Shown here piece by piece: positions 11,126 to 59,318 of a stretch of 64,000 nt of DNA (position 1 is its first letter; every line of letters begins with the position of its first letter). A program made the position numbers and the translations under genes. The notes under the pieces were generated by a model. It searched no databases, was not told the origin of the DNA, and worked only from the letters and a program-made list of their open reading frames with translations. Location: NCBI GenBank assembly GCA_921293015.1, contig OV121096.1, positions 9,551,000 to 9,614,999 on the forward strand, given 5' to 3'. Source of the stretch: Phorcus lineatus (lineage: Eukaryota; Mollusca; Gastropoda; Trochida; Trochidae).

Positions 11126-11131
11126 ATCATC

Positions 11132-11486: not shown

Positions 11487-11496
11487 TGTGCTGTGC

Positions 11497-18694: not shown

Positions 18695-21600
18695 GTGAGT
18701 ACTTCAATAGGGGTTAGATATGATGTATTACATAGTAAAGATACATCATTGGAACCCAGAACCTACCACTGAGTACTTTAATAGGAGTTAGATATTATAT
18801 AGGGACACTATGTAATCTAACTTTATAGGGACAAGGTGATATCTCACCCATGGTCACCAGATCCTGCCAGTTATTACATAGCTAGTGGTAATGTTAATGT
18901 AATCTAACTGTATAGGGACATGGTAATATCTCACCCATGGTCACCGGAACCTTCCAGTGATAACATAGCTAGTGGTAATATTCATGTAATCTAACTTTAT
19001 AGGGACATGGTAATATCTCACCCATGGTCACCAGAACCTTCCAGTGATAACATAGCTAGTGGTAATATTCATGTAATCTAACTTTATAGGGACATGTTGA
19101 TATCTCACCCATGGTCACCGGAACCTTCCAGTGATAACATAGCTAGTGGTAATATTCATGTAATCTAACTTTATAGGGACATGTTGATATCTCACCCATT
19201 GTCACCAGATCCTGCAATTGATAAAATAGCTAGTGGCAATATTCATTTAATCTAACTTTATAGGGACATGGTGATATCTCACCCATGGTCACCAGAACCT
19301 GCCAGTTATTACATAGCTAGGGGTATTGCACCCTTGAATATAAAGTCAAGAATGTCGTAATCATTGTATGACGAAATTTGGGATAGGGATGTTGTGCACT
19401 TATGCATTGTTTCAAATATCGTATCGTATATTATATACAGGCCTTGTCAGTGTTTATTTACAACGATCATTACACTGGTAGTCCACGTGCATAATTTGTT
19501 AGCCATCGCCAAATACTTGATAATATTTATCTTGCGCTGCCACACCACAAGGGTGTGCTCAAAGCACCAAACACATTATTACCCTGGTCAAACATCACTC
19601 CCTTTGCATTCACAACATGCAAACCAATCAACGGATTATGCACTTGATGGTTATCTGAAACATTGCCATGTTTTCCAAACCAGGTAACCAGTTTCCCCGC
19701 TGGGTGAACAGAGGCACATTTCGAACAATGTCTCTTGCCTAGGCTGACACAACAAGTTTCTCAACTGTAGTCTAAGGGCGGGACAAGGGTAACATCACTC
19801 AAACTCTCAGTTTATCCAGCAATGAATCGGGCAACCCTTCGATCCGGAGAGCAACGTCTGATGTTGCTTAACTTCTCTGAAGGCTGTCCGTTGTACAATG
19901 CACTGGACCACGCACCACCAAATATTCTAGACTTCATTGTTGAAATATAGTTGTTACATCCCTTCTATAAGAAAGCGACATGCAATAAAGAAGGACGAAA
20001 GCCGTCTCTTAAACATGAACAGCTGACAGGATCAATTATTAAGTTTCCAATACTTCTACCATAATGTATGATTTAATTATTTCTTTACGTTATTGAGTCT
20101 GCAAGGCACTGTAACAACTTCAACATGACCAAACTGTCTCCCCCAACTTTCGTATCAATCCTGCATCAACTACATAAATCCTTGTAGACCTTTCTACAGA
20201 TGCTTTTCTTCAACAAATTTATAGGTTTGAAAACTGTGCTACTTATAGATTTTAAACGCTTCAAGCTTTGTCATGTTGATAGAAATATTTCATCATGTTA
20301 AACAATACAAAGCTTAATTGGAAGAACAGCAGTTTCCTACTGTCGACGGATTTCCGCTTGTATGTGTTTTACGGCCGATTGATAGCCGATTTCACTTGGA
20401 GTAATGTTAGTCTAAATTTGTCTAATAACAAGTTAAATCTTTAATACACTTCTCAATTAAATAAAAAGAATAAAAATTGATTGCAGGCAATGGATTACCA
20501 TTTACTCCGGAAATGCATGTTTAGGGTACCACGGGGAAGCAATGGAACTGGTATAGGCAGCGGCCATGTTATAAAATAAAAGCCATGATCGAAGTTCAAT
20601 AAAGTACAATCATAATATGATGTTTTTCAAATTCAATGCCGAATATCTCATCTATATTCATCATCCTTTTGGAAATATTGAATTCACAAGAACTTATTCA
20701 TTCGAGGTAAAAGGATTTTAGTTTGACCATTTTCATTCACATTAAAGGGCCACAGAGTATGTTGTTGGAGTCAAATATGTCATACTTCATAAATGGTGTT
20801 ATTTCATCAAGAAGTAGTGGTTGTTTTAGAAAATCAGAATCCTAGTCATTATAAGTTGAGTATAGTGACAATAAATTGGTTAATGTCGTGATTTGTGGTC
20901 GAAAACCGGACAGTGGCGCGCGCAAATGATTCAAACGTAATTTCGGAAACTTATTTACAACAGATACAAAGACAAACATTGGTAAATAGTGTTAAGTAGG
21001 TCGTTTAACTCATATGCACGTTAAGTGGACACATATTTTCGAATTCTTAACATTTATAGCGCTGTTTCCCGATTATCAGTCATAACAAGAAAATATTAAA
21101 ATTTCGCCATTTTAAAGATAGAGATGCACTTTTAGGGAGGCGATTTTAACTTAACTCAGGTCATAAGGTATTTTTGCTCTTACTAGCACCAATTAACATG
21201 AACTCTGTGATACTCTGTGTCACTTTAAGGCGGTGACTCCATTGTGTTAAATGTTTCTCCGTCAAGTTGACCAGTGTTAACCACTGAAAAATAAACATGG
21301 TAACTCGACAACAACCTGGTATCCATCGATTGATCGGCCAGAGATCGGAAATAAGTCGTGGCTAGCGACTAGAAATTGATCAATACCCGATGACATTTTG
21401 CAGTACAACCGAACAGTGTTGAATTATAGTCCATATTACCTATTGGTTTTTAGAGAAAGGTTTCTTGCTACACCATTAGAACATAATTGAAGCGGATTCA
21501 AAAGGCATCTTAACTGTAAAAGAGTATGTCATATAGGCTGTAATATAAGTAGAGAAATATTTCCTGGATAACAGCTTCTTTGTTGTAAAAATCACGATAT

Positions 21601-27600: not shown

Positions 27601-30600
27601 CTCATTGTCTTATCGTCAATGTGGAGGGTTCAACTCGCATCAAATTTTGTCAGCCTACATTGTCCAAAGTAACGCTAATAAAGTAATTTATGAATGAATC
27701 AATCAATCAATCTATAACAGAGAGATGAACCTTGAGAAAAGCAAAGCTGTGAAGAAGAAAATGGCCTTCCAGAAGCGAAAAGCTCCTCAACCAGAAAGCA
27801 AGAAACCAACATTACGCCATCTTGAACTTTGCCTTATGGGAGCAGTTGACGTCATAGGTACGTAGTGTATGTTTCCTGTGTAGCAGATTTTAAATTTCAG
27901 GATTTGTCACATGAACGGGAAAAATTCATCTTTTGGAACAAATAATCATAATCTAAACATGTCCTTTGAAAATAAAATATATTGTGAAAAAAATAAAAAA
28001 ATAAAGAAATACTTTATAATTTAATTCACTTGTTCTATCTGTCGTAATGATAGATGAGGTTAATGATAAATGTCATATATGTATTACAACGAAGGCATTT
28101 TTATCTAGAAGTACAGTCGAACAACGATGTATTTTATTTAGCATTTTAAATTAACATTAACAATATTTTTATCCCAATCCTTTCTTATTGAACGTGGTTG
28201 TCGACAAGGAGATCCTATATCCCCCTATCTGTTTTTATTTGTAGCTGAAATTCTTGGTAGTATGATAAGACAAAATAAGGAAATAAAGGGTGTCACTTTA
28301 AACGGACAAAAATACAACTTAGGCCAGTACGCTGGTGACACTCAACTTTTTCGGGATTGTTCAGAGTCAAGCCTTAAAGCAGCTATTGAAACTCTTAATA
28401 CTTGTTATGGCATGTCAGGCCTCAAAATGAATATAGATAAAACTCAAGCTATCTGGATAGGCTCTATGGCTGGTAAAAAACTAAAAATTTGTGAAAATTC
28501 TAAACTTGACTGGCACTCAGGAAATTTTGAAATTCTGGACATCACCTTGAACTCTGATTTACAGGACCTCTGGGTAATAAATGCAAGAAAAAAGATTGAA
28601 AATATAAGGAGAATTCTTGCTTCTTGGAAGCACAAACCATTAACTTTGATTGGGAAAATAACTGTTATAAAATCCCTAGCTTTATCAACATTGGTCCATA
28701 TATTTTCCGCCCTGCCTACCCCACCTGAAGATTTTGTTAAAGAATTGAACAAAATATTTTTTGATTTCTTATGGAATGGTAAAAGGAATAAGATAAAAAT
28801 AATCAATATGATTAGAAAATATGAGCAAGGTGGTCTTAGAATGATAGATCTTGACTCTTTTATTCAAGCCTTGAAGCTATCCCATTTGAGAAAATGTGCA
28901 CAAAACCTCAACTTTATGAAGCCTAGTCAGTTCCCTTTGGAAAAAGTTTTTACTTTTGGTGCTAATATCAATTTGTATAAGGACTGTAAGAATCCTTTTT
29001 GGAGAAGCGTTATGAATGCTTGGTCCAAAAGATTAGAGAAAAGTAACCCAGACAACATTTATTACATTTTATCACAACCTTTATGGTTTAACCACCACTT
29101 TAAAGACAAAATATTCTTTATTGGAAATTGGTACAGTTAAGGATTGTCCTGTGTCATGGATATTTGTAATACCTGTGGGTTAATGACTTTTGATGAACTG
29201 AAAAAGGTATATGACATTAAAGGAACATTTTTAGATTATCAAAAGTTGGTTCTTGGTATTCCTGCCTTATGGAAGCAATGTATTAATCAGCAAACCTGTA
29301 TAGTTAAATCCAATCTGATTATAAATGACATTTTTCTGGACTTGTTCAAACCAGAAAAAGGGTCACGATATTTTTACGACCGCATAATTACTTGTAATGA
29401 TAGACCAAAGGTCTGTGGAAAGTGGGCGGAAAATTTTGACATCACAATGCTAGACTAGAAAAATATTTTTATTCAGTACAGATGCTCAACAAAGGATGTC
29501 AAATTATTAGAATTTCAATTCAAATTTTTGCATCGCATAGTGTATACCAAGAAGGAATTAAAAGCAATGAAATTAGTAGATGATTACTGTTCATTTTGTA
29601 AATTTGAGAAAGAAAACTTGGTTCACGTTTTTATAAATTGCGCTCTTGTAAAAGAATTTTGGATGAAACTGGAACTATTTTTTAACACCCACACAAAATT
29701 GGGTATAATACTAGACACAAATGCTATTCTTTTTGGCTATCCTGCCAGATTTAATTGCTCAATCAGCTAATCTTGTTGAGCAAAAGGCATATCTTTTTGA
29801 GTAGTCTTAAAGGTTAAACCTTTTCGTTTGAGAAGGCTAGTCTAGTCTATGCCATTGAAAAGTTTATTTCTTGTAAAAATCACAATGTTTATTTGAAAAA
29901 AAAATGGTCTCCACTTTCACGTGCCTTGACAATGTAACAGAATACAAATTTGTTTTATGTATATTGCAGCCATTATACCATATCACATATATTTTGTTAT
30001 CTACCCATAATGACTAGGTATGAATATACATGTAACACTATACCTGACTGAATGCTGGAATAAACATCTTTTGAAAACCCCCCAATATTTTTCAACAGTT
30101 TGATAGTTTTGCCTTTGAGCCTTTGAATATGTTATTCCCCGTATAAAATATACTCTTTCTTCAATTTAAAGTCTTACTATTTATGGTACTTATTTGAGAG
30201 CCCTACGATATCTTTTTAATGAATTCGTATTGCATGTACGTGTGTAAACCCTCACCTTACCCATGCCTTTTTGTATGAAAACTGGAAAATATTTCCAACT
30301 GCAAATCAAAATTCAAAACTACTTCATTGTAAATGACTAGAAAGCCTTTGTTTCAGTGTTGTTTGCATTATCAGTACATCATACTAAGTTTGTTTTAAAA
30401 AATTCCCAAAACCGTCTAGGGTTACTGTCCTCTGTGATATGAAACAGACATCGGTTAAAATTAGTTTTTAGTTTATTAGTTTTACTACAACCGGGACCGG
30501 TCTGAAAAGAAGTGTTCTCAAGAAATTTCTAATCAAGAATTCTAGGCCCCCAAAACAAATGTTCATTTCGTATTCTGATCTTCATCCACTAACAGGAGAC

Positions 30601-33600
30601 CTGGAGATGGCCCTCGGTTTAACGACGTATGCGCAGAGTGTCATCTGCACTGAGGAAGCGGAAGTGTATCAGTTGGACCAGCGAAACTATGACCGGCTGA
30701 TCGAGAAGCGGAACCCACATGCCATCCGAATGATGAAGAGCATCGTGCACACTAAACTGTCTCTGCATTTCTCCCGGCTCAGCGAGGAAAAACTTCCGCT
30801 TTTCCGTTATTTCCTGTATATGTTGGACGAGAAGGAGCGGAAGGACAGACATGCAGAACAGGTGGCGGCTGCTTCCGGTCCAACTGCTGCAGCGGACAAA
30901 CCCGCTGAGGTTAGTTGGAAGTCCTACGGGCTGCATAAAGGACCGCTTGTAGATCTCTTTGGTCCCGGGAGTGTGTTTTACATGATCAGAATGAGGGAAA
31001 AGGAGAAAAAGAAAAGAACACAGAAACCTAAACAGTTCGGAGGTTCGAAATTTGGAATAAAATCTGCGTTTACCTTTGGTGCACGTGCTCTACCGGAAGT
31101 TACGGAAGGGAGAGCTGTGAGTGACAATGAAAGACTTCCACGGAGTAACACAGCGCCAGGACAAAACCCTTTTATAACAGAACCAACGAAAGCGCCGACA
31201 CCTACATTTCCGCCAAAAATTACATACCAGGGGCCCGATTCAGAGGATTATTTTGAAAACGACATGTTTCAAGGAAAAGAAAACAAAGGGAGGGAATCAA
31301 CCGGAAGTCGACAGACATTATCTCCCCTGTATACGGACGAGGACAGTGGGGACGAGACTCTGTGGGCTATTGGAGATTCAGCTTTGTCTCGTCTCGAGGA
31401 GAAGATACAAGCATGGCACAGTAGCCTCGATGACCCCGAGACTAGACCCACAAGCATGAAACGAGCTGTCCGGCTTCATCGTTACCATGCCGAGGTGAGG
31501 TATGAGAGATGAGAGGGGTATGAGGGGTGAGAGGGGTATGAGGGGTGAGAGGGCTGAGAGGGGTATGAGGGCTGAGAGGGGTATGGGGGCTGAGAGGGGC
31601 GAGAGTGGTATGAGGGGCGAGAGGGGTATGAGGGCTGAGAGGGGTATGAGGGCTGAGAGGGGTATGAGTGGTATAAGGGGCGAGAGGGGTATGAGGGCTG
31701 AGAGGGGTATGAGGGCTGAGAGGGGTATGAGGGCTGAGAGGGGTATGAGGGGCGAGAGGGGTATGAGGGGCGAAAGGGGTATGAGGGGTGAGAGGGGTAT
31801 GAGGGCTGAGAGGGGTACGAGTGGTATGAGGGGCGAGAGGGGTATGAGGGCCTAGAGGGGTATGAGGGGCGAGAGGGGCGAGAGGGGTATGAGGGCTGAG
31901 AGGGGTATGAGGGCTGAGAGGGGTATGAGGGGCGAGAGGGTATGAGGGGCGAGAGGGGTGAGAGGGGTATGAGGGGCGAGAGGGGTATGAGGGATGAGAG
32001 GGGTATGAGGGTTGAGAGAGGTACGAGTGGTATGAGGGGCGAGAGGGGTGCGAGGGGTATACCGGTATTCGAACGAGTTCATATCTCGGTAAAGAATTTT
32101 GGTCAGCGTTTTTTTCTCTCGGAAAACTTTATTATTATACATAAAGTCTTAAATTTTTCCTTTTAGGAATACCAATTACATTTACTCTATTCTTAGTGAA
32201 GAAAGATCGAGTATTTTCAATCCTGCCATAGGAACACCATTTCTCTAAAAGCTTTGTGAACGTTTGTCACGTCGATCCTTAAAGCAATGATTATTAAAAG
32301 TCACTGTAAAGCCCTTTTTATGTTTATTTATTCTCATTTCCCCCTTCTTTACTTCTTTATGAAAAATTCTTCAGAGGTTTTAATATCTCTTTGCTCAACC
32401 GATTATAGAAAGAATAAGAATAAGGTGTCACGTATTAAGCGTAATCTCATTTAAATCAGATAAATCTATCACTCACACCTCATTGCCATCATATATATGA
32501 CGTCGAATTTTCATCACCAAAAGCCTTAATTCATTTCTAATGTTTAAATCGTGAAGATGCGAATAATTGTTTCTGTAGGTGGTTATTACCTTTTCACAAG
32601 GTTCTTCTGTTTTGTTTGTTTAAAGATATTTCCCTTTTTTAAACATCTAAATTGTTATCAAACTTCTTGCGTAAGGGAATGCGTGTTGACAGACTCTTAA
32701 AGGTGATTAATGATTAATTCCTTTCGAATAGTAATAACAAAATCCCAATGCAGTGATTCTTTTAATCTCTTTCACATACAAATATAAATGAATAATTTTT
32801 TAATGTATAAAAGTCATCAGCGGGGAAAGATCACAATTTCTATATTCTACTTCTTATAGCTACATCGAGGAGAAAATTTGGATAGACTATATCCTATCTA
32901 TTTACCAAAGTCATGAATAGTTACAGTCTAAAATTGTGGTACTAATATTTAATCAACATTGAACAGAACAGAATTTTTTCAAAGATTACATCACTACCAT
33001 GTGATAAACCTATCTTTTGCTACAGGAAAGAAAACCTCGCCCTGGAAACAGGGTGCACATGCGGTTGCGGGACGCCACTAGAAGCGTTGCCATAGTAACA
33101 TCTCGTAGCGATGACGACGAAATGACGACTGAAATTGACAACAGACAAAGATCCAACTCCGTCACAACTCATTCTCCGTTGTCAAGGTAACCGGTCACAT
33201 AAATCAATGCAATACAATTCAATGGGAGTGAACTATTATTTTACTACTTTCATGTAACGAAGTTCCTCTCAACCCCAGTATAAATGAAAAACACCTCTTT
33301 GATCAGTTTCGAATGTTGAGCATGCATAATCGTCATCTTAAAATAAGACGATAGTCATTTAGCGTTTTAATTGTCAATAAGACGTCGGCCTAACGCGTTG
33401 AAGCCGGTCAATGGGGAATTTCCTTAGATAGTTCGACACTAGAAACCTAACATTGCATTTTTAAACCGCATACTGATCCACGTATATTCATTAACATATA
33501 CGTCAGCTGTGCATGGCGTATTTGTGTTTGGTTAATGCATGTCATATATATATTCAAATATATAAAATCAAATATTTAATTATCACTGATCGATATATAC

Positions 33601-42665: not shown

Positions 42666-42669
42666 GTTC

Positions 42670-43136
42670 TTAAAGAGCCACTCTGTAATTTTCATAACAT
42701 ATTATTTACCTTTGATGCGAACCAAAATGTCATATGTGGTGATATAAAATCAAAACATCTTAACTTTTCATGTCGAAAAGACACATACTGGTTTTCCATG
42801 AAAATCTAATAACAGCCTTATAAATGCACAGAGGTGTATTTATCACGTCCAATATACATGGATACTAGTTATATAACCTGACAAACACTATCAACACCTA
42901 ACTGCCCTCCTGGCTGTTTAAGATAAGTCTCCAAAATTACGTTTGACTATTTGTAGCGCCTCACTGTCCGGTTTTCGATCATAATTGCAACGTTCTATCT
43001 TCATATTGTCACTGTAAAAATAACAATAATATCTAAAATGTGTCTATTTGGTAATAGTCGATACTTCGCGATCAAATGACACCTTTGATTGAGTTTGGCA
43101 TATATGACTCCACCAACTAACGGAGTGGCTCTTTAA
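42670..43136 (-). mobile_element. MITE family 1, copy abutting the left terminal repeat
   Basis: Ends ttaaagagccactctgt and, inverted, ttaaagagccactccgt, so about 17-bp terminal repeats. TTAA flanks both sides. It stops about 5 bp before the conserved sequence that begins the large palindromic structure. Confidence 0.85.
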
Positions 43137-43140
43137 GTTA

Positions 43141-43192
43141 CACGTGCGTGTGTAGCGACCCAAACCGGGACACGACCCAAACCGGGGAAATC
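43141..43192 (+). repeat. Left terminal inverted repeat of the 16-kb palindromic structure
   Basis: 43156-43192 holds two direct copies of CGACCCAAACCGGG separated by ACA, then GGAAATC. It is nearly identical to the reverse complement of 59264-59299. Outside it both ends begin CAC(G/T)TGCG. Confidence 0.8.
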
Positions 43193-43199
43193 GATCCAA

Positions 43200-44270
43200 G
43201 TTTTAGACTCAACTCATTTCCATAATTTGCTGCGGAGAGTTTTAGATCACGTGAAGGAAGTCATTGAAAACTTGTAATGTAGTTTAAATGGAAAACGATT
43301 ACGGCAAATTGAAAATCATTGTTTATAGAAATCCATAATATTTGGAAAGTTTGTTTTGGTATAAATCACTTATTTTTCCATATGTGTTTCATGCAATATA
43401 TGAATGATAGTGTCAGAGAGGCCCATTTAAACCTAATTTGGAACAACAATGTTCATTTGCGGTAAATCACTTTTAAAAAGATATTGACATATTTTTCATG
43501 CTTATGTAATCTAAAAAATGAATGTTCATTCATTAACATTAATGTCCAATTTTTTTTTATTGTTTACACATTTGAATGTCACAGAGTTAGTGATATATAA
43601 TTATGTATACTTAATCTCCAGTCTTATGTCACTATATTGATTATGAGTGGTTTGGTACATTGAGAAAGAAAGCTGAATGAAATAATTAGTGGATTTATCA
43701 AACCACGTATTTTTAACAGGTGAATAAACCTCTGTATGGCGTGCGGCATAGTCTAGTTCGATAACAGTTTTCGCTTCGTTTTTCTTCTTCGATTACTAAT
43801 AATCAGATTGAGTCATGAAGTGTTTGACCCTCTGAAGATAATGCATTTGGGATAAATATTAACTTCATTTGGGAAAATTTTAAGAAATAAACTTTCCCAA
43901 AACGTGCTACTGCTCCTTTGAAATTCTATTTCTTAAGTTTTCAGTCTACTGTCATCGGACTAGGAGAAGAATATATGCTATGTACCAGCTACATATGAAT
44001 ACATTCATAAGTCTAATTTTTCTGAGATTAAAATATAACCATTTACCATTGAACTTTCAAAAACAAAAAAGATTTTGATAGATTTCCTTCTAGAACCTTT
44101 CCGCACATTACAAAAAAAACCCCATACATACAAGACGGTATGTCAAGGTTTCATAAATGTATGGGCATAAATGTATATAAGCAAAGCCTTGATGTAATCA
44201 GGTTATCAAGTTTGGATTGAGGTTATGACACGAGTATAAATATATTTGTTTCAAAACTTAAATGCGTACC
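43200..44270. other. Left sub-terminal region with a MITE family 2 fragment
   Basis: Non-coding. 43735-43922 matches the 3' half of MITE family 2 (gtttgaccctctgaagataa ... aacgtgctactgctccttt). Confidence 0.5.
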
Positions 44271-47200
44271 CTCAGCAGAAGAATAGATTTCGTTATGTTT
44301 TCCGTCCGCATTTGGTCGAAATTGTATTCAATTACACTTATGTAAAATTTTAAATTTTTTCACAAAAAAGAGTGTATCTGGTAGCTGAACATGTTGAAAC
44401 AAAACTGCGCACTGTTTGGTGTGCAGTATAAAATTTAAAGACGTTTTACCGTTTAGGTCCAGGGTCCAATGAACTATTTCAAAATATGCCAAATAACTAA
44501 GAGTGATGAAAAGTAGCCAACCTTATAAAATTCATCGCGAATCATGAATCTATATATATCAAAAGTATAGATTTTAAAGGCGTTTTCCCGTAAAAATTAA
44601 CTTATTCAAACCAAAGCCAAAAATCTAATTCTTTACCAATGGTAGCTAAACTTGCCAGATGATCTTGTATCATTATTATATATATGTTAAAACAAATTTG
44701 CGCACCACTATAGATTTAAATTTGCGCACCATTTGGAAGAAAATTTTAAAGACGTTTTCCCGTTTTGGGTCGAGGTCCTGTCATTATTGAAATATTCAAA
44801 CCTATGTAAAATATCTATTAGTTGACCAATGGTAGCCAAACTTGCCAGATCATCTTGCATCATGACTCTACACATGTTAAAACAAAATTGCTCACCATTG
44901 GGTCAAAAGTATAGATTTTAAAGGCGTTTTCCCGTTTTGGGTCGAGGTCCTGTAAACATTGAAATATTCAAACCTATGTAAAATATCTTATACTTGACGC
45001 AAGGTAGCCAAACTTGCCAGACCATCTTGTATCATGATTATATACACGTTAAAACAAATTTGCGCACCATTGGGACGAAAATATAGATTTGAAAGACGTT
45101 TTCCCTTTTTGGGTCGAGGTCCTGTCAAAATTGAAATATTCAAACCTATGTAAAATATCTATTAATTGACCAATGGTAGCCAAACTTGCCAGATCATCTT
45201 GTATCATGATCATATACATGTTAAAACAAAATTGCGCACCATTGGGTCGAAATTATAGATTTTAAAGACGTTTTCCCGTTTTGGGTCGAGGTCCTGTCAA
45301 AATTGATATATTCAAACCTATGTAAAATATCTATTAGTTGACCAATGGTAGCCAAACTTGCCAGATCATCGTGCATCATGACTCTACACCCGTAAAAACT
45401 AAATTGCGCACCATTTGGACGAAAATATAGATTTTAAAGACGTTTTCCCGTTTTGGGTCGAGGTCCTGTCAAAATTGAGATATTCAAACCTATGTAAAAT
45501 AGCTATTAGTTGACCAGTGGTAGCCAAACTTGCCAGATCATCTTGTACCATGATTATATACATGTTAAAACAAATTTGCGCACCATTGGGGCGAATCTAA
45601 AGATTTTAAAGACGTTTTCCCGTTTTGGGTCGAGGTCCTGTCAACATTGATATATTCAAATCTATGTAAAATATCTATTAGTTGACCAAAGGTAGCCAAA
45701 CTTGCCAGACCATCTTGTATCATGATTATATACATGTTAAAACAAAATTGCGCACCATTGGGTCGAAATTATAGATTTTAAAGACGTTTTCCCGTTTTGG
45801 GTCGAGGTCCTGTCAAAATTGATATATTCAAACCTATGTAAAATATCTATTAGTTGACCAATGGTAGCCAAACTTGTCAGATCATCGTGCATCATGACTC
45901 TACACACGTAAAAACTAAATTGCGCACCATTGGGGTGAATATATAGATTTTAAAGGCGTTTTCCCGTTTTGGGTCGAGGTCCTGTCAAAATTGAAATATT
46001 CAAACCTATGTAAAATATTTATTAGTTGACCAATTGTAGCCAAAATTGCCAGATCATCTTGTATCATAATCATATACATGTTAAAACAAATTTTCGCACC
46101 ATTGGGTCGAAAATATAGATTTTAAAGACCTTTTCCCGTTTTGGGTCGAGGTCCGGTCAAAATTGATATATTCAAACCTATGAAAAATATCTACTAGTTG
46201 ACCAATGGTAGCCAAACTTGTCAGATCATCGTGCATCATTACTCTACACACGTTCAAACAAAATTGCGCACCATTGGGACGAAAATATAGATTTTAAAGA
46301 CGTTTTCCCGTTTTGGGTCGAGGTCCTGTCAAAATCGAAATATTCAAACCTATGTAAAATATCTATTAGTTAACCAGTGGTAGCCAAACTTGCCAGATAA
46401 TCTTGTATCATGATCATATACATGTTAAAACAAATTTGCGCACCATTGGGTCGAAATTATAGATTTTAAAGACGTTTTCCCGTTTTGGGTCGAGGTCCTG
46501 TCAAAATTGATATATTCAAACCCATGTAAAATATCTATTAGTTGACCAATGGTAGCCAAACTTGCCAGATCATCGTGCATCATGACTCTACACACGTAAA
46601 AACTAAATTGCGCACCATTGGGGTGAAAATATAGATTTTAAAGACGGTTTCCCGTTTTGGGTCGAGGTCCTGTCAAAATTGAGATATTCAAACCTATGTA
46701 AAATAGCTATTAGTTGACCAGTGGTAGCCAAACTTGCCAGATCATCTTGTACCATGATTATATACATGTTAAAACAAATTTGCGCACCATTGGGGCGAAT
46801 CTAAGGATTTTAAAGACGTTTTCCCGTTTTGGGTCGAGGTCCTGTCAACATTGATATATTCAAATCTATGTAAAATATCTATTAGTTGACCAAAGGTAGC
46901 CAAATTTGCCAGATCATTTTGTATCATGATTATATACATGTTAAAACAAAATTGCGCACCATTGGGTCGAAATTATAGATTTTAAAGACGTTTTCCCGTT
47001 TTGGGTCGAGGTCCTGTCAAAATTGATATATTCAAATCTATGTAAAATATCTATTAGTTGACCAAAGGTAGCCAAACTTGCCAGATCATCTTGTATCATG
47101 ATTATATACATGTTAAAACAAAATTGCGCACCATTGGGTCGAAATTATAGATTTTAAAGACGTTTTCCCGTTTTGGGTCGAGGTCCTGTCAAAATTGATA

Positions 47201-49200
47201 TATTCAAACCTATGTAAAATATCTATTAGTTGACCAATGGTAGCCAAACTTGTCAGATCATCGTGCATCATGACTCTACACACGTAAAAACTAAATTGCG
47301 CACCATTGGGGTGAATATATAGATTTTAAAGGCGTTTTCCCGTTTTGGGTCGAGGTCCTGTCAAAATTGAAATATTCAAACCTATGTAAAATATTTATTA
47401 GTTGACCAATTGTAGCCAAAATTGCCAGATCATCTTGTATCATAATCATATACATGTTAAAACAAATTTTCGCACCATTGGGTCGAAAATATAGATTTTA
47501 AAGACCTTTTCCCGTTTTGGGTCGAGGTCCGGTCAAAATTGATATATTCAAACCTATGAAAAATATCTACTAGTTGACCAATGGTAGCCAAACTTGCCAG
47601 ATCATCGTGCATCATTACTCTACACACGTTCAAACAAAATTGCGCACCATTGGGACGAAAATATAGATTTTAAAGACGTTTTCCCGTTTTGGGTCGAGGT
47701 CCTGTCAAAATTGAAATATTCAAACCTATGTAAAATATCTATTAGTTAACCAGTGGTAGCCAAACTTGCCAGATAATCTTGTATCATGATCATATACATG
47801 TTAAAACAAATTTGCGCACCATTGGGTCGAAATTATAGATTTTAAAGACGTTTTCCCCGTTTTGGGTCGAGGTCCTGTCAAAATTGATATATTCAAACCC
47901 ATGTAAAATATCTATTAGTTGACCAATGGTAGCCAAACTTGCCAGATCATCGTGCATCATGACTCTACACACGTAAAAACTAAATTGCGCACCATTGGGG
48001 TGAAAATATAGATTTTAAAGACGGTTTCCCGTTTTGGGTCGAGGTCCTGTCAAAATTGAGATATTCAAACCTATGTAAAATAGCTATTAGTTGACCAGTG
48101 GTAGCCAAACTTGCCAGATCATCTTGTACCATGATTATATACATGTTAAAACAAATTTGCGCACCATTGGGGCGAATCTAAGGATTTTAAAGACGTTTTC
48201 CCGTTTTGGGTCGAGGTCCTGTCAACATTGATATATTCAAATCTATGTAAAATATCTATTAGTTGACCAAAGGTAGCCAAATTTGCCAGATCATTTTGTA
48301 TCATGATTATATACATGTTAAAACAAAATTGCGCACCATTGGGTCGAAATTATAGATTTTAAAGACGTTTTCCCGTTTTGGGTCGAGGTCCTGTCAAAAT
48401 TGATATATTCAAATCTATGTAAAATATCTATTAGTTGACCAGTGGTAGCCAAACTTGTCAGATCATCGTGCATAATGACTCTACACACGTTAAAACTAAA
48501 TTGCGCACCATTGGGGTGAATATATAGATTTTAAAGGCGTTTTCCCGTTTTGGGTCGAGGTCCTGTCAAAATTGAAATATTCAAACCTATGTAAAATATC
48601 TATTAGTTGACCAGTGGTAGCCAAACTTGCCAGATCATCGTGCATAATGACTCTACACACGTTAAAACTAAATTGCGCACCATTGGGGTGAAAATATAGA
48701 TTTTAAAGGCGTTTTCCCGTTTTGGGTCGAGGTCCTGTCAAAATTGAAATATTCAAGCCTATGTAAAATATCTAATACTTGACACAAGGTTGCCAAACTT
48801 GCAAGATCATCTTGTATCATGATCATATACATGTTAAAACAAATTTGCGCACCATTGGGTCGAAATTATAGATTTTAAAGACGTTTTCCCGTTTTGGGTC
48901 GAGGTAAAATATCCAATAGTTGACCAAAGAAAACCAAACTTGCCAGATCCTCGTGTATCGTATATCTACATATGTTAAACATAATAATGCACTATTGAGT
49001 AACATATAGGTTTTAAAGACGTTTTCCCGTTTTGGGTTGTTTTATTTTCGAAATAAACAAATTCAGACATTTGCCAAATATCTATTAGTTGATCAATCGT
49101 AGCTAAACTTGCCAGATAACCGTGTTTAATGAAGTTTGGCAAACCAACCTAATTTTTTTTTTAATAGGGCTCAATAGGTTAGTTGTTAGAAACGTTTTCT
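44270..49200 (+). repeat. 172-bp satellite array, left, about 28 monomers with higher-order repeats
   Basis: The anchor cgttttcccgttttgggtcg recurs exactly every 172 bp from 44753 to 48882 (one 173 step at 47849-48022). Diverged or shortened copies at about 44297, 44442, 44581, 49020 and 49190 mark degenerate edges. Monomers 45441-46473 (seven) recur with the same private variants as 46645-47849 (eight, one extra at 46989), and the next round starts at 48022. This is a 1204/1376-bp higher-order repeat. No coding capacity. Confidence 0.97.
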
Positions 49201-51410
49201 CTGTTTACATTAATGCCTAATGGTATATAAACCAACATACTAATCCATTGTTCTTGACGATTTCGTAGATTACTTAAAAACATTTGTCATTGTTTTGGAG
49301 CACAGTTCACTTTTAATCAAGAGGTTTCATTAAGCCGCCTCCAACTTGAATATATTGCATCACTGTTTATCATATTCTCATGATGTCACTAGCATAAAAT
49401 TGTTTTTTAATGCTTTTCTTATTTGCTAATCAGATTTTATAAACACCAACAGTTTTTATCTATTGATTTTGGCCAGGCATATAACTGTATATACATTGAA
49501 ATAATTTCTGAATCTCAAAGTTCAAAGTAAATGGCCTTACATTTAGTTTGATAATGTAAAGGTTGCATTTTTGATATCTATAGAAGTTATCACATTTATC
49601 AATCGGTTGTTATTACCTTCTGAGGAGAGTGGTGGAAGTGCCATATGATATTTAAATATTATCGTATTTTGGTTGTTTTAGTTTTGTGGAGGAATTTTCT
49701 GGTAAGTGACTATAGGCTACTTTCAAACTCAATTACAAAATATAGTTATACTCCTTAAACTGAAATACCGTGGATTGATTAATATGGATGTTGTCAGTTG
49801 GTAACGACAAAGTTGAGTCCTGAACCATTCTTAACTTCAGGCTTAAGTAACTAGACTTGGAAGCATTTTACAGACTTCCAATAATTTTCGCAATAGGGTC
49901 TTTACTTGACATCAACCGCAGACTAATTTGATAAATATTACAATTAATTTCAAGTGAATATCATTTCCCCCATAGTTAATCGTATTAATTTGATGGATAG
50001 TCATGTCAAAAACTTTGATCAATTATTCAAATGTTTATCTTCCTTAGCTATAGCATTTTGAAAATGTTGAAATATGAAAATACTCATATTTATTGCTTTC
50101 CGACAATTGCATAGGCACACTATTCTTAAAGTTTACCGTCCAAGGCTCAGAGAGACATACCGAGAGTATATATTTGCTATAAATATTTTGGATTTCGAAA
50201 ATTTAAGATATGATGTAAGGAGTTAGTAGATACCAAAAATAAGAGAGCCATGGTCTATGTAGTTCAACAGACTAGGTAGTGTTGATTTTCAAGACGAAGA
50301 TGTATATCCGTTAGATCTCCAAATGAAATACCAAAATTGTTCAGTGTCAGTGCACTAGATAAGATGTCTTAACACAAATTTGGAAGAAAGTTGATGAAAC
50401 CATGTAATATTCCTTAAATCATAATCCTGAAAAGACAACAGATTTTTTTTTAAAATAGTGACTATTTTTCATTCATTTACACACTCTTACACATTTGCTC
50501 TTTTATGTCTTAACGCATTTAAAACAACTAAAACAGGCTTTAAATGAGCAAAAAATCTATTTCCAACAAAATCCCACTTCTATCTTCTGACCCCACCACT
50601 TTTGTTATCAACCTTTCCCAAATTAACGTTCACCAAACCCCTGCCAATACGCAACAGAAATTGCAAGGGTGTCAGATTTCGACTTGCTTGTCCCTTGTTA
50701 CTGTGTGCCCAGTCCACTGTTTGCAAGGGCTGTCTGAACAAGCTCAGTCATGCGCTTCAAAAATTTATTAATTGTTTTTTAGTTTACTTTTTAATTGAGC
50801 TTCAGACATGAACTTGGGCTCGATTGAATCCTCCTAACCACATCAATATGATTCAACTTAACTGATCATCTGACAAAGCTTTTGGAAATTATAGGCCTTT
50901 TAAGTTTGCAACCCGGTCACGCCATATGAACCCCTGCCACACTCTTGTTTTTGGGGTTAGGACAGTGAAATTTACACATCTTTGTCTCAATCCTACAAAG
51001 ATGGTATTCTCAAAACATAAGATCCCAAGCATGACTGATGTCTGGTCTGAAATAAAGGCGATAGAATGTTTCAGGTTGGGTATTCAGTAACGCCATTATT
51101 TGAACGGCGGCCAAGATCAAATCTAATCTAATCTAATCTGCAAGGTGTTTCCCCCTCCCCTAAGTTTCAATTTTAGGAGTCGTCTGTTTTGTTGGAGAAG
51201 TCGAAAATGTCAAAAGTTTACGGACCACGCCCGACGGACATCGGATTAAGGGCCATGTTATACCTTTCAGGTCTGATCGGCTTATAAAATGAGTTAAAGA
51301 TTAAAGAGACCCTACATGAGTTGTTCGAATTACATATGCTAAACTTGTGGTGTCATTGCCAAAAGGTAACAACTGTATTCTAATCAGTTCATTTGGGCGA
51401 CAATTGAAGG
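49200..51410. other. Left half of the spacer between the satellite arrays
   Basis: AT-rich, no recognised gene. 50880-51140 ends in a run of AATCT units (51118-51138), like the tail of a retroposed repeat. Confidence 0.4.
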
Positions 51411-51416
51411 GGAAAA

Positions 51417-52697
51417 GTTGCGATATTGATTGAAAATAGGATGCGCATCAATTAGTCATACATAAATTTCAAACTAATGCAGGTAGCAGATTGCATTTGA
51501 GTTGGTATCCGAGAGGTGACTATTGATATACACCCCTCATCGTTGATGTCATTATTTAGACATCTGATGACTGTTTACAGACAACCCTTCACGATCATTT
51601 ACTTGAGATTTACAGCCTGTTGAATAAAGCTACTCTCCTGTAATCATGGAAAGTTCTAAAACTGAGCATCGTACGGTTATGAAGTTTCTCACAAAAGAAG
51701 GGGTGAATGCGACCGTAATACATAAACATATGACCAATGTGTATGTGAAACAGCCCCTCAATAATCTACTGTTGCAAAATGGTCAGCTGAGTTGAAGCGG
51801 GTTAGCAGCTCTTTGGATGATGACCCACGGTCAGGAAGGCCTGTTGAAGACATTACAGATGATATGGTTGCACTGATCGAGGGCTTAATCATGTCTGATC
51901 GTAGAATAAAGGTGAACGAGATATCTTCAGAGTGTGGCATTTCTCACGGAAGTGTTTGCACCATAATTCATGAGCACTTGACCAATGTGTTTGCAAGATG
52001 GATACCACAAAACTGATCAACACCAAAGAGTTGAATCCAGTCGTGAGCTCTTTGACATCGACAATGCTGATCGCGATAACTTTCATGCCCGTCTGCTTAC
52101 AGAGGAAGAAACATGGATTCATCACTGGGATCCTGACACCAAGCAAGAATACATGCAATGAAAGCACAAGCACTCTCCTCATCCAAAAAGTTCAGAACTA
52201 AGCCTTCTGCTGGCGGGATCATGGCGACCATTTTTTGGGAATCAAAGGGCGTGATACCTATAGACTGTAAACCGTCTAAAACTACAGTAACAGAAGCCTA
52301 CTATGCTGACTTGTTGAAGTGATTGAGAGCGGCGATCAAGAGGAAGAGGCGCGGCATGTTGACTGCTGGAGTTATGCTTCTTCATGACAACGCTCCAGTG
52401 CACAAGCGTAGTATCGCACAGGCTGCGTTTCAACAATTTGGCTTTTAACATCTTAACCCTAGCCCCTTACAGTCTAGATCTGTCCAAAAGCGACTTCTAT
52501 CTGTTTCGCATTTTGAAATTAAACCTGCGTGGTACGAGCTTTTGCATGATGATGAACTCATGGCAGCTACTTAGGCATGGATGAGGGGCCAGTCAGAAGA
52601 TTTCTACCGCAACGGCATAGACAGTCTCAAAGACAAAAGGACTAGGTGCATCGAGGTCCAGGGAAAATATATTGAAAAATGAAATCAATATCGCAAC
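51417..52697 (+). mobile_element. Inactive mariner element (D34D)
   Basis: Perfect 15-bp inverted repeats, gttgcgatattgatt (51417-51431 and 52683-52697), enclose 1281 bp, the usual mariner size. The transposase starts at ATG 51646 (MESSKTEHRTVMKFLTKEG) and is spread over several frames. Recognisable parts include STVAKWSAELKR, DDDPRSGRPVEDITDD, ETWIHHWDPDTKQE, HDNAPVH and SKSDFYLF. The second and third catalytic Asp codons are 106 nt apart, which is D34D plus a 1-bp insertion. The first catalytic Asp (normally DETW) is Glu. It has at least four frameshifts or stops, so it is dead. It sits in the spacer between the two satellite arrays. Confidence 0.92.
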
Positions 52698-52699
52698 CA

Positions 52700-55220
52700 T
52701 TGGCTTCTGTTTTTATATCCATTCCTCGTAGTTACTATTATTCATAATAACCGACAATGTGATTTCGCGTTGTTTGGTTTTCATTCAAAACATTTGTTTA
52801 AAGTAAATAAGTGTCTTTTATCTACCTAATCCCTGTCGAAATGTATTTAAATTTGTTTACATGATCAGTGAATGTCTTCATATTATGTTTTAAGAAAACT
52901 TCCGTTTATTATTTTTCTGTGCATAAGCGGGAGAATCTAAATAATGATAATACATATTTTTGACAATTGAGGAAATTAGGTATTGATTGATGAGATATAC
53001 ATTATCAGTGTTTATCATTACAACAGATGCAATCTTTCATGTTTTTTTTTATTTCAACCGATAGATTTACGATAGGTGGATAATAACTAAATTGAAATAA
53101 CGTTGTAAATGCAAACATTTGAATATAAGATATTTCCTTTGCTGATTGTTTTTTTGTTTTTTAAGGTAGTTATAGTTTGCAAATTGATCAAATTATTAAA
53201 GTTTTATTGAATATGTTTTAAAAGTTAGGGTCAAATGTAACTCCGAATTGTTTTTTAACCTTAATTTGTTCATTGATTATGCATAAGTGCAAAAATCAAC
53301 ATAACATTTTTAACGGAATATCCTAGCTTCGTGCCGTAAAAGTTTCATGAATGGGAAAACAATTTACTTTTCACGTTTCACATCAATTCAAATATTGCTA
53401 ACTTACATGACGAAACTCAAAAACGAAAAATTTAAATCATTACATTTTATTCTGCGACTGTTACCTCATTGTTATATTGTTATACTAACAAACTTACCCC
53501 CCCCCCTTCCCCCCCCCCCCCCCAGGCCAACCACCTTACACTGAAGCAAAAGTCAAAAGGCAATCTTGCAATATACATGCACAATTTACCGTGTCCATGA
53601 AGGTATTGATTGATTTTTTAAAAGATTTTACAAATACGAAATATTTTCTCTCAGAAGTCTGAAAATATCAAAAGGCACCGCCTCAGTAGTTTTATCAGTA
53701 ATATTTATGCAAAGTTCCAGTAAGATTTAAGTTTTTAGTTCTGTTACAGTAATTATAATTATATGAACGGACGGATATACCCCACGTGATATGTATCGTA
53801 GCGATAAAAAAATGAAAAAACCATAATTTCAATTAACACCCATAATGAGAACTCACATACAGTACACTCGAATGATGTTCTCAAATACCAAGGCAAACAA
53901 CACTACATTAATATTTAAAGAATGAATTAGTTTTGAGTAAAATAAATATCAGCTATCAGAATGCTGCGCCAAAGCTGAGAACCACCATATTTTCATGGAA
54001 ATCTGACGATCTGGGTCAAGATCTATACATGGTTATTGACAAAATTCGACATGACTTATAGATTTCAGCAAAGGGAAAGTAGTTCAAAGGTGGTGCTCTA
54101 ACGAAAGCTATAAAATCTTCAAGAAGACTGCTAGAGCGCGAGTATACTGAAAATCAGACTTTGAGATAATTTTTAAAAATAACGAACTTCTGTTTCTGAT
54201 TACAATTTCTTGGTCTGCTTGTGTCTTCGTATAGTTTAAATTAGCGTAAATAGGACTTAGACTGTTTAAAGTGCTCTTATTTGATACACATTCTTGGAAC
54301 TGGACAAGAATGTGACAAAAGACATGGTTTGCCTAGAATAAGACATTTCAATGCCCCCTTGCTTAGTTGAATATAACCCCAACTGTCATTCTTGCGTTCA
54401 TTTCCAGTGTAGAAAATTAACTTATCTTAATCATATTTATTGTTATTTAAAGAAGACTTACACAGAAGAATGTTTTGAGTTGTCGTTCAACGCTTTAAAA
54501 GCACGACCCTAAAGTGAAGTGAGTCAAGTGAATCTCAATCTAGTTAAAGCTAGCTGTATTGATAAAGTTTCAAGGGATAATTCTCATATGTAAGACTGCC
54601 TAGACTCTGCAAAAACATCCTACTGAAACAGGATTCGTGAATCCATGGTGATAGTCGTTGATTTATGTATATAATGGTGGAGACTTAGATAGTAAATCAT
54701 AGATACTATTCTAAATCATTACTAGATTGCAATTATATCAGGGCTACGGTGTTTGAGTCTATGAATCTTCAAGCCAGACATAATCTTAAATCTTAAACTA
54801 CATAGCCTTATCCGTTATTCTTCAAAGAATTATTTCATTTCCTTATCTTCGTCTACGTATCTTCAGGGAAGACTATTGCCTGATTGACATAAAAAAAATA
54901 TCATGTAGTCTTCTTGCACAGCTCTTACATAAGATTCAAGTCATCATATTGAAATATGGCACTTATCAACCATTTGTTATGTTTATGTTAAGTTGATAAT
55001 AAAAATTATCTGCTTTGTTACAGTTATTCCTGTTGTTCTATAGCCCATAAGGCTCGTCATACAATGTAAACAGTTACAGAAAATAGACATTTCTACAATA
55101 GATTGTTTGCGTAAATAAATTCTGTTGATTTAATAGGACTTCAACTCAAAGTAGAAAAACGGAATTCATATCAATACTGTTGACTCAACAGAGCGATTTT
55201 AAGGTTTTTAAACATATTGA
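52700..55220. other. Right half of the spacer, with a poly(C) tract
   Basis: A C-run of about 27 bases broken by TT lies at 53497-53523. The rest is AT-rich and non-coding. Confidence 0.45.
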
Positions 55221-55224
55221 GTTA

Positions 55225-58200
55225 TTCTACACACAATGATCTGAAAAGTTTGGCTACCATTGGTCAAGTATTAGATATTTTACATAGGTTTGAATATTCT
55301 AATTTTGACAGGACCTCGACCCAAAACGGGAAAATGTCTTTAAAATCTATATTTTCGACCCAATGGTGCGCAATTTTGTTTTAACATGTATATAATCATG
55401 ATACACGATGATCTGGCAAGTTTGGCTACCTTTTGTCAACTAATAGATATTTTACATAGGTTTGAATTTGTTAATTTTGACAGGACCTCGACCCAAAACG
55501 GGAAAACGTCTTTAAAATCTATATTTTCTTCCAAATGGTGCGCAAATTTGTTTTAACGTGTATATAATCATGATACAAGATGGTCTGGCAAGTTTGGCTA
55601 CCTTGCGTCAAGTATAAGATATTTTACATAGGTTTGAATATTTCAATTTTGACAGGACCTCGACCCAAAACGGGAAAACGTCTTTAAAATCTATATTTTC
55701 TTCCCAATGGTGCGCAAATTTGTTTTAACGTGTATATAATCATGATACACGATGATCTGGCAAGTGTGGATACCATTGGTCAACTAATAGATATTTTACA
55801 TAGTTTTGAATAGATCAATTTTGACCAAACCTCGACCCAAAACGGGAAAACGTCTTTAAAATCTATATTTTCGTCCAAATGGTGCGCAATTTAATTTAAA
55901 CATGTGTAGATTCATGATACACGATGATCTGGCAAGTGTGGATACCATTGGTCAACTAATAGATATTTTACATAGGTTTGAATATATCAATTTTGACCGG
56001 ACCTCGACCCAAAACGGGAAAACGTCTTTAAAATCTATATTTTCGTCCCAATGGTGCGCAATTTTGTTTTAACATGTATATAATCATGATACAAGATGAT
56101 CTTGCAAGTTTGGCTACCTTTTGTCAAGTATTAGATATTTTACATAGGTTTGAATTTGTTAATTTTGACCGGACCTCGACCCAAAACGGGAAAACGTCTT
56201 TAAAATCTATATTTTCGTCCCAATGGTGCGCAATTTTGTTTTAACATGTATATGATCATGATACAAGATGATCTGGCAAGTTTGGCTACCTTTTGTCAAC
56301 TAATAGATATTTTACATAGGTTTGAATTTGTTAATATTGACAGGACCTCGACCCAAAACGGGAAAACGTCTTTAAAATCTATATTTTCGTCCCAATGGTG
56401 CGCAATTTTGTTTTAACATGTATATAATCATGATACAAGATGATCTGGCAAGTTTGGCTACCTTTTGTCAAGTATTAGATATTTTACATAGGTTTGAATT
56501 TGTTAATTTTGACAGGACCTCGACCCAAAACGGGAAAACGTCTTTAAAATCTATATTTTCGTCCCAATGGTGCGCAATTTTGTTTTAACATGTATATAAT
56601 CATGATACAAGATGATCTGGCAAGTTTGGCTACCTTTTGTCAACTAATAGATATTTTACATAGGTTTGAATTTGTTAATATTGACAGGACCTCGACCCAA
56701 AACGGGAAAACGTCTTTAAAATCTATATTTTCTTCCAAATGGTGCGCAATTTTGTTTTAACATGTATATAATCATGATACAAGATGATCTGGCAAGTTTG
56801 GCTACCTTTTGTCAAGTATTAGATATTTTACATAGGTTTGAATTTGTTAATTTTGACAGGACCTCGACCCAAAACGGGAAAATGTCTTTAAAATCTATAT
56901 TTTCGACCCAATGGTGCGCAATTTTGTTTTAACATGTATATAATCATGATACACGATGATCTGGCAAGTTTGGCTACCTTTTGTCAAGTATTAGATATTT
57001 TACATAGGTTTGAATTTGTTAATATTGACAGGACCTCGACCCAAAACGGGAAAACGTCTTTAAAATCTATATTTTCGTCCCAATGGTGCGCAATTTTGTT
57101 TTAACATGTATATAATCATGATACACGATGATCTGGCAAGTTTGGCTACCTTTTGTCAACTAATAGATATTTTACATAGGTTTGAATTTGTTAATTTTCA
57201 CAGGACCTCGACCCAAAACGGGAAAACGTCTTTAAAATCGATATTTTCGTCCCAATAGTACGCAATTTTGTTTTAACATGTAAATAATCATGATACACGA
57301 TGATCTGGCAAGTTTGGCTACCTTTTGTCAACTAATAGATATTTTACATAGGTTTGAATTTGTTAATTTTCACAGGACCTCGACCCAAAACGGGAAAACG
57401 TCTTTAAAATCGATATTTTCGTCCCAATAGTACGCAATTTTGTTTTAACATGTATATAATCATGATACACGATGATCTGGCAAGTTTGGCTACCTTTTGT
57501 CAAGTATTAGATATTTTACATAGGTTTGAATTTGTTAATATTGACAGGACCTCGACCCAAAACGGGAAAACGTCTTTAAAATCTATATTTTCGTCCCAAT
57601 GGTGCGCAATTTTGTTTTAACATGTATATAATCATGATACACGATGATCTGGCAAGTTTGGCTACCTTTTGTCAACTAATAGATATTTTACATAGGTTTG
57701 AATTTGTTAATTTTCACAGGACCTCGACCCAAAACGGGAAAACGTCTTTAAAATCGATATTTTCGTCCCAATAGTACGCAATTTTGTTTTAACATGTAAA
57801 TAATCATGATACACGATGATCTGGCAAGTTTGGCTACCATTGGTCAACTAATAGATATTTTACATAAGTTTGGATATGTTAATTTTGACAGGACCTCGAC
57901 CCAAAACGGGAAAACGCCTTTAAAATATATACCTTTGATCAAATGGTGCGCAATTTAGTTTTAACATGTGTAGATTCATGATTCATGATGATCTGGCAAG
58001 TTTGGCTACCTTTGATCATGTATTAAACTTTTGGCATAGTTTTGAATATGTTAATTTGGACAGGACCTTGACCCAAAACCCTTTAAAATGAAGACTTTTC
58101 ATCATGCGCATTTTTGTTTTAACTTGTATAGATTCATTTTACGGGATGATCTGGCATGTTTGGCTTAATTTGGTCCACTATTAGATATTTTGCATAGTTT

Positions 58201-58325
58201 TAAAAATTTTAATTTGGACAGGAACTCGACCCAAAACTGGAAAACGCTTTTAAAATTTATACTTTTCATCCAATGGGGTGCATTTTTGTTTTATCTTGTA
58301 AAGATTCATGTTACGGGATGATCGG
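55225..58325 (-). repeat. 172-bp satellite array, right, inverted, about 18 monomers
   Basis: The same monomer as 44270-49200, on the opposite strand. cgggaaaa(c/t)g recurs every 172 bp from 55327 to 57907 (16 regular units), with decayed units at about 58078 and 58240. Sub-types alternate (ttttgtcaactaatag versus ttttgtcaagtattag), giving partial 2- and 3-monomer periodicity unlike the 7/8-mer of the left array. Confidence 0.97.
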
Positions 58326-58329
58326 GAAA

Positions 58330-59260
58330 CGCTTTCCATATTTTCTATATTTTCATATTAGTAATCCTAAATATCATTTCAATATATCTTAAACCTAATT
58401 TAATCATTTCTAGCACGTATTCGATACATTATTAAAACATTATAGAATAAATTGTAGCCAAAGATATTATTTTTTCAAATAACTATAAAATGTATAATAT
58501 ACATATTACATATGGCGAGATAATTGAATATCTATATATGAGATGCATAACCTATCTACGTCCAATGCGACAGTTTGAACACAGAGGTCAAATTAAATCT
58601 TCGGCATTTTCCCTTGATATATTGTTTCCTATCATATTTTTTCTAATTTGAATTGAACTCTAATTTCGATCAATGCATTTTACTTCCCAATAACTCAATA
58701 GTAAAGTCGATAAAAAATGTATTTGATCTACTTTAACTCAAAGTCTCAACATTTTCATATTCACATTCAACATTATACTTCAACCAAAGACCTCATGATA
58801 TAAGGCTTCGTTGTTCTAGGCTCCTTTCAAATTTATTTCATATGAGATAGTCAAAGATGAATATAGTTAAAATGTAATTTTTGTAGAAATAACTGATAAG
58901 TTTGTTTTATTTTGAATACAACATACGTTTAATTTTTTTTAACCTCAATTTATTTTTTATAATGAAAATATTAAGAAAATATTTATCAGACAGCAAATTA
59001 AAAAATAAAGAAAGAGAATCGAAGCTATTTTAATCAACAGCAAACAGCGTGAGCAGAAAGAAGGTACAGTGGTTATGGTTCGTTTCCACAACGCAATCCT
59101 TCTTTTGCAGCTACGGGGCAAATCGCGCTCGACTTTCCAAGCGGACGAAGTCGAAAATAGGCTAATAAAGTCAAAAGCTGTTTTTCTTGGCACAAAAAGG
59201 CTTTTTTTCACTTAACCATACCATTTAATGATTTTCAATGAGGCAATTGGATTTATTTAT
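58330..59260. other. Right sub-terminal region
   Basis: Non-coding as far as I can see. An 84-codon minus-strand ORF at 58957-59211 lies in a locally GC-richer patch; I recognise no domain. Confidence 0.4.
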
Positions 59261-59263
59261 ATA

Positions 59264-59318
59264 GATTTCCCTGTTTGGGTCGTTTCCCGGTTTGGGTCGT
59301 AACATGCGTGCGCAAGTG
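59264..59318 (-). repeat. Right terminal inverted repeat of the 16-kb palindromic structure
   Basis: Reverse complement of the left terminal sequence (43156-43192) with a 1-bp indel and about two substitutions, including both copies of the CGACCCAAAC core. Confidence 0.8.

Follow-up and report, generated by a model that had tools for sequence, protein, structure and literature searches.

The 64,000-bp window analysed here (C37:9551000-9614999; C-numbers denote contigs of the 958-Mb genome, which comprises 74, and L-numbers genomic pieces fetched from it) very probably contains a full-length member of a family of giant, non-autonomous DNA transposons of the cut-and-paste type, with copies dispersed through the genome. 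The copy spans 16,154 bp (43151-59304), begins with TGTAGCGACCC, finishes with GGGTCGTAACA and has TGCGTG on both sides. We place the family among non-autonomous DNA (class II) transposons because it has terminal inverted repeats (TIRs), a target-site duplication (TSD) of fixed 6-bp length and no intact transposase of its own. The enzyme would be encoded elsewhere, two mirror-image satellite arrays within the element would provide binding sites for it, and short scars at other loci would stem from the loss of insertions. An earlier note on this DNA had proposed a single giant non-autonomous element bracketed by inverted repeats, and the exact TSDs, together with many relatives of the same architecture, bear this out.

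The limits of the element follow from its flanks and ends. TGCGTG at 43145-43150 is repeated exactly at 59305-59310, which answers the earlier note's call for a comparison of the flanks. The left end (LE; 43151-43195, plus strand) consists of TGTAG and two tandem units of a 17-bp motif (43156-43172 and 43173-43189); positions 21-26 of the element (43171-43176) read CACGAC, a target-like hexamer. The right end (RE; 59264-59304, minus strand), delimited from the sequence and a motif search, has two such units (59266-59282 and 59283-59299) and finishes in GGGTCGTAACA. These ends form imperfect inverted repeats of about 45 bp, with 90% identity over 40 bp. The motif has 47 matches in the window, four in the ends and 43 in the arrays or at their edges, for a chance expectation of 0.00 (100 shuffles). 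The inverted repeats first noticed at 43156-43192 and 59264-59299 are therefore real and do bracket the arrays, but the exact element is slightly larger than they indicate.

Inward from the LE lies a non-coding outer segment (43196-44419, plus strand), kept in other copies and without an inverted counterpart on the right. It is followed by degenerate satellite monomers bordering the left array (44420-44742, plus strand; about 70% to the right edge) and by the left array itself, with about 24 monomers of 172 bp and the end motif on the minus strand (44743-48905). A spacer (49144-55220, plus strand), common to other copies and inverted in three of them, separates it from the right array, in which the end motif lies on the plus strand of about 17 monomers of 172 bp (55231-58079). 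The right array is bordered by its own degenerate monomers (58080-58335, plus strand, recognized from the sequence and from comparison with the left edge) and by a non-coding right outer segment (58336-59263, plus strand), again kept in other copies. The two arrays are inverted relative to each other. The description of the whole as a palindromic structure was thus right for the ends and the arrays, but there is no strict palindrome: only the ends, the arrays and the adjoining degenerate monomers are inverted, whereas the outer segments of about 1 kb and the spacer are not inverted repeats.

Only two open reading frames (ORFs) of at least 80 aa, of 97 and 84 aa, are found in the window copy; there is no intact transposase, and the only pieces of one belong to a mariner, in agreement with the original impression that the element has no transposase of its own. 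The broken mariner transposase (51628-52710, plus strand; Transposase_1 at 1.9e-8, SETMAR at 2.1e-4) had been taken for a separate dead insertion. The insertion is indeed dead but occurs in other copies as well. We sought it in 11 fetched pieces and found it, at 86-92% identity, in all six that span the place (L024 is interrupted there and four end before it), so it is an old passenger common to other copies.

The end sequences reveal a multicopy family. The genome search with the LE that the earlier note had suggested gave 77 matches to a 20-mer at up to two mismatches (38 exact), with none for the reversed control; a 34-mer from the RE gave 73, a number that includes left ends at three mismatches. 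Opposite ends could be paired within 30 kb in 30 LE-RE pairings using 29 REs, at separations of 222 bp to 22 kb, mostly 10-22 kb, and pairs around 172-bp arrays recur. The ends are fixed (TGTAGCGACCC... and ...GGGTCGTAACA, with a variant ...GTTACA), and many of twenty pieces of 8-10 kb have the same order of parts, with 3 to at least 34 motif matches per array. There are at least two groups of copies, about 12-15% apart. An ordinary satellite, the case in which the end motif would occur only within arrays, was rejected, since the ends are multicopy and lie outside the arrays. Arrays are hard to assemble, and an assembly artefact or a chance arrangement of two ordinary satellite arrays had to be considered; the same order recurs at unrelated places that differ in TSD and array size, which already contradicts this idea and leaves it with next to no probability.

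Some further loci add to the picture of how ends are distributed. At C19:1263814, C11:4387650 and C1:4603911, the motif occurs without a listed outer unit, 9-12 kb from known REs that it faces; these look like LEs with a worn outer unit. Three REs on one strand of C15 (12094836, 12111412 and 12127976) have an even spacing of about 16.57 kb and are probably a tandem triplication including part of the element. In L017 (1588-10000; C5:23919857 onwards), an 89-bp LE remnant is followed by three occurrences of one 91-aa ORF, 2812 bp apart, which makes this a long-period tandem repeat.

The duplications at the insertion sites give the family a clear signature. Among 27 pair rows, an exact 6-bp TSD was found in 16 (15 by script and the window pair by hand) and a TSD with one mismatch in one more; two pairs unreadable by pattern and the 222-bp pair stand outside this count. 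Mispaired flanks, a control that includes the window row with a wrong end, agree exactly in 6/702 cases and with at most one mismatch in 63/702. The target hexamer strongly follows NRCGYN. At 49 ends, some of which are both ends of one copy, the hexamer has A (34) or G (9) at position 2, then C (43), G (42), and T (32) or C (14) at position 5. NRCGYN is present in 29 of 39 hand-copied left flanks, compared with 0.7% of window positions.

These duplications bear on two other rival explanations. Helitrons and Helentrons are not known to make a TSD, and Polinton-type elements make one of 6 bp. A virus-like or Polinton-type element that has lost its genes and decayed would agree with this length and with the size of most pairs (10-22 kb), but the TIRs are short and the only ORFs of at least 80 aa are the two mentioned above (no search for integrase or polymerase families was made), and we consider this origin very unlikely. 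Carriage of the satellite by a Helitron or Helentron has a reported precedent in an oyster, where a dispersed satellite is said to be carried by non-autonomous Helentrons (PMC7492417). A satellite on a non-autonomous mobile element is common to both cases, but Helentrons are rolling-circle elements, and the two inverted ends, the mirror arrays and above all the 6-bp TSDs in 16/27 pair rows contradict such an explanation, which is extremely unlikely.

This satellite is carried by the transposon family. A search with the monomer, in which 40 of 131 candidate regions were scored, yielded 712 matches. Among the 150 listed, 138 lie inside 28 pair spans, and all 138 are in mirror orientation; nine of the remaining 12 lie beside unpaired ends, and the other three form one mirror pair of arrays (C5:24223412 and C5:24232389-24233591) with no ends among those listed. 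A satellite family so tied to one mobile element, with 138 of 150 listed matches inside pairs and nine more by an unpaired end, has an origin and spread that can be read directly. As the terminal motif recurs in the window monomers, the arrays are probably multiplied putative transposase-binding sites. The LE reads as the motif followed by CACGAC, the RE as the motif followed by AACGAC, and the monomer consensus as the motif with AACGTC one base further on. A transposase encoded elsewhere would bind the motif at the ends, and the arrays, as amplified copies in mirror orientation, could help to recruit it. Mirror arrays in some thirty copies would allow one to test whether tandem binding sites aid transposition.

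Where could this transposase be? P superfamily elements have TSDs of 7-8 bp and MULE elements of 8-11 bp; the 6-bp TSD of the family matches neither. There are hAT groups with 5- and 6-bp TSDs, judging from titles cited in PMC12730594. We found one P family with five 872-aa frames, of which two were read, and its ends differ from those of the element. A P-type family seen at L105 394-6499 and L106 398-6501 (C2:65240950 and C37:24968504) deserves mention in its own right. These two copies are 99.8% identical over at least 6.1 kb and have an 802-aa transposase ORF, and the family looks recently active; a 377-aa ORF on the opposite strand has no Pfam match at 1e-3.

Several observations weigh against the view that the family consists of cut-and-paste elements moved by an enzyme encoded elsewhere. 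None of the 11 genome matches to P-type genes (PF21787) lies within 25 kb of an element end. No hAT transposase was found inside a copy among the 150 matches listed (150 of 287 candidates scored), and one lies 2.8 kb outside a copy. Among 150 listed MULE matches (150 of 521 candidates scored), the 123 rows on contigs with ends were checked by script and none is within 25 kb, the nearest being at 45 kb, while the rest were checked by eye. In diverged relatives and at unpaired ends, a partner was not found either: these contain family interior or other DNA, and the longest open stretch is 177 aa from stop to stop, such stretches not having been searched further. A clear TSD is lacking in 10 of the 27 pair rows, one of which shares its RE with a neighbouring nested copy and one of which has a masked left flank, and an additional pair (C15:27515763 and C15:27502679) has flanks without a matching duplication. 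The search with the joined flanks of the window copy (best 40 of 2973 candidates scored) revealed no empty site, matching only its own two flanks and a miniature inverted-repeat transposable element (MITE) in the left one. Finally, the binding of the 17-bp motif is a prediction.

The MITE-like repeat in the left flank (window 42669-43137) has 23-bp inverted ends (CTTAAAGAGCCACTCTG...) and finishes 7 bp before the TSD of the element. It is itself present in many copies, with 38 further listed matches at 90-92% and 2973 first-look candidates for a 499-bp query.

The family has left a second kind of trace. A genome search with the first 20 bases of the LE, one mismatch being allowed, found 63 sites, of which 42 are exact, and we read the flanks of all of them. 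At 14 loci, with the duplicated L049 and L050 counted as one, the LE remnant is exactly 20 bp long, and the hexamers on its two sides agree at 6/6 positions in seven, at 5/6 in five and poorly in two (L016 and L059). Agreement of at least 5/6 is found in 12/14 scars at offset 20 and in one at any other offset from 6 to 44. With mispaired scars, the same agreement is reached in 44/182 cases and is exact in 6/182; the scar hexamers resemble one another. The remnants break off immediately 5' of CACGAC (LE positions 21-26), and the scar hexamers are nearer to CACGAC than those of full copies (Mann-Whitney p 4e-4), with A at position 5 in 7/14 versus 0/39 (p 2e-5). One short element, L055, has two ends and the TSD GGCGTC, and a 20-bp scar is nested in its CACGAC hexamer. 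The corresponding search with the RE gave 47 sites (34 exact), among them one possible 20-bp scar (L102, hexamers 4/6) and one site, L103, that is neither a scar nor has a matching duplication.

The finding of scars of fixed length raises the question of how they are generated. Some insertions may have been lost later, so that precisely the 20 outermost bp of the LE remain between the two target duplications. This loss could be a self-directed event, in which the right end attacks the internal CACGAC, or a repair guided by the likeness of this hexamer to the flanking duplication. Because the break coincides with the 5' border of the internal CACGAC, we favour an event guided by this target-like hexamer of the element itself, by one of these two routes. 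Self-integration has been reported for Sleeping Beauty and piggyBac (PMC3952818). Two other candidates were rejected. A microhomology deletion, as a full account, predicts that the right hexamer starts with C, but in L049, L060, L064 and L079 the base at this place is that of the TSD itself; and use of the inner motif unit as a substitute end does not fit, since its spacing to the cut is off by 3 bp. Some remnants speak against so regular a process, as they do not stop at position 20: L101 (RE, 33 bp, exact TSD), L010 (LE, 109 bp, exact TSD GACGTT) and L037 (LE, 34 bp, 5/6). The hexamer bias of the scars could also reflect a different insertion population.

The scars might instead be excision footprints of a P-like cleavage, with the non-transferred strand cut 20 nt inside the LE and the overhang kept. 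P elements cut 17 nt inside the end. Such a cut would account for the exact 20 bp and for an intact right TSD even at loci whose TSD has a first base other than C (L049, L060, L064 and L079), and P-type transposases are present in the genome. However, it does not predict the CACGAC bias of the scar hexamers, there are 14 left-end scars and one possible right-end scar (L102), the TSD is of 6 bp rather than 7-8, and none of the 11 listed P genes lies near an end. We regard this alternative as possible but doubtful. A bolder proposal, which we think unlikely, is that the family represents a lineage with its own novel type of transposase (6-bp NRCGYN target, TGTA..TWACA ends) and dozens of units made of the motif and a target-like hexamer. 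Attack beside its own motif would both have amplified the arrays and make the fixed 20-bp LE scar, resulting in a self-limiting, self-targeting transposon. Whatever their origin, the 20-bp scars provide a countable record of putative past losses and a sharp prediction on the cut made by the partner enzyme.

In the window copy, the mean identity between left and right arrays is 0.902, and that of the left array to the left arrays of L013 and L024 is 0.916-0.917. However, in L021+, L023- and L027- the left array resembles the three right arrays sampled more than it does the left arrays of the window, L013 and L024; for example, that of L023- has an identity of 0.919 to the window right array and of 0.895 to the window left array. 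The idea of left and right arrays as cleanly separate lineages fails for these three copies. Compared with the outer segments on both sides, the spacer runs in the opposite direction in C5:4951215 and C7:47142220; in C11:50719597 it does so compared with the left segment. These are 3 of 12 readable copies, the window and eight others sharing the window orientation. All three are members of the diverged group, so a single flip is enough. Recombination between the inverted arrays is the simple explanation for both the flip and the mixing: it would have turned the spacer around on one or more occasions and, in some copies, exchanged monomers between left and right. The arrays would also change in length. 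The flipped spacer is an example of what inverted arrays do to intervening DNA.

How does this architecture compare with known elements? The earlier note knew of none, but foldback elements with short conserved ends and inverted arrays sharing the end motif have been described. Tetris, a foldback transposon of Drosophila virilis, is non-autonomous and has inverted arms with tandem repeats of about 220 bp that have a 37-bp stretch in common with the terminal domain; its repeat number varies among copies and its partner was not found (PMC4079207). All these traits are shared with the family studied here. Tetris has only three structurally complete copies with TSDs, and most of its repeats are in contigs without the terminal domain (PMC4079207); in contrast, our copies are mostly of 10-22 kb, have outer segments of about 1 kb that are not inverted, and hold 138 of the 150 listed satellite matches inside pairs. 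Galileo, a foldback-like member of the P superfamily, has long ends with internal tandem repeats holding extra transposase binding sites, a repeat number unequal between ends, chimeric copies without matching TSD and a link to inversions (PMC3688188, PMC3573991). The likeness extends to the tandem repeats in the ends, their unequal number, the copies without matching TSD and the link to inversions. Yet Galileo has a 7-bp TSD, TIRs of up to about 1.26 kb with 2-3 repeats and known transposase-coding copies (PMC3688188, PMC3573991), whereas here the TSD is of 6 bp and no coding copy was found.

The family thus has two features of foldback elements, inverted arms with tandem repeats and repeats sharing terminal sequence (the 17-bp motif), but it lacks a long continuous TIR running from the tip through the repeats, as the outer segments of about 1 kb are not inverted. 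Since foldback elements with terminal-motif repeats have been described (Tetris and Galileo), the family is, on this comparison, a large variant of a known foldback-type architecture. The notion that the repeats act as additional transposase sites likewise derives from these elements. It differs from known foldback elements in its size, the non-inverted outer segments, the 6-bp NRCGYN duplication and the 20-bp scars. What looks new is that no transposase partner was found, and that 14 loci have an exact 20-bp LE remnant, 12 of them with matching hexamers. No element with these features was found in titles and abstract openings of the open-licence literature. Two other groups share part of the signature. 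IS3EU elements have a 6-bp TSD and TIRs of more than 30 bp, and TET-bearing fungal families have the ends TAYGG..CCRTA (PMC12730594); the TSD length and TIRs of more than 30 bp are thus shared, but the ends here, TGTAGCGACC / TGTWACGACC, are different. Dada elements have a 6-7-bp TSD, often with CG, no TIR, and insert in small RNA genes (PMC3706591). A 6-bp CG-bearing TSD is common to both, but the family has TIRs and dispersed NRCGYN sites instead. Rfam gave no match in the window.

The window contains other repeats and ORFs outside the element. An 18-bp minisatellite unit, GGTATGAGGGGTGAGAGG, is present in about 32 copies at 31499-32060, directly after a 317-aa ORF (30559-31512). Other tandem arrays lie at 18810-19325 (87 bp x 5.9) and 11131-11487 (50 bp x 7.1). 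The minus strand at 941-2356 has an uninterrupted 471-aa ORF that is, by eye, leucine-rich-repeat-like.

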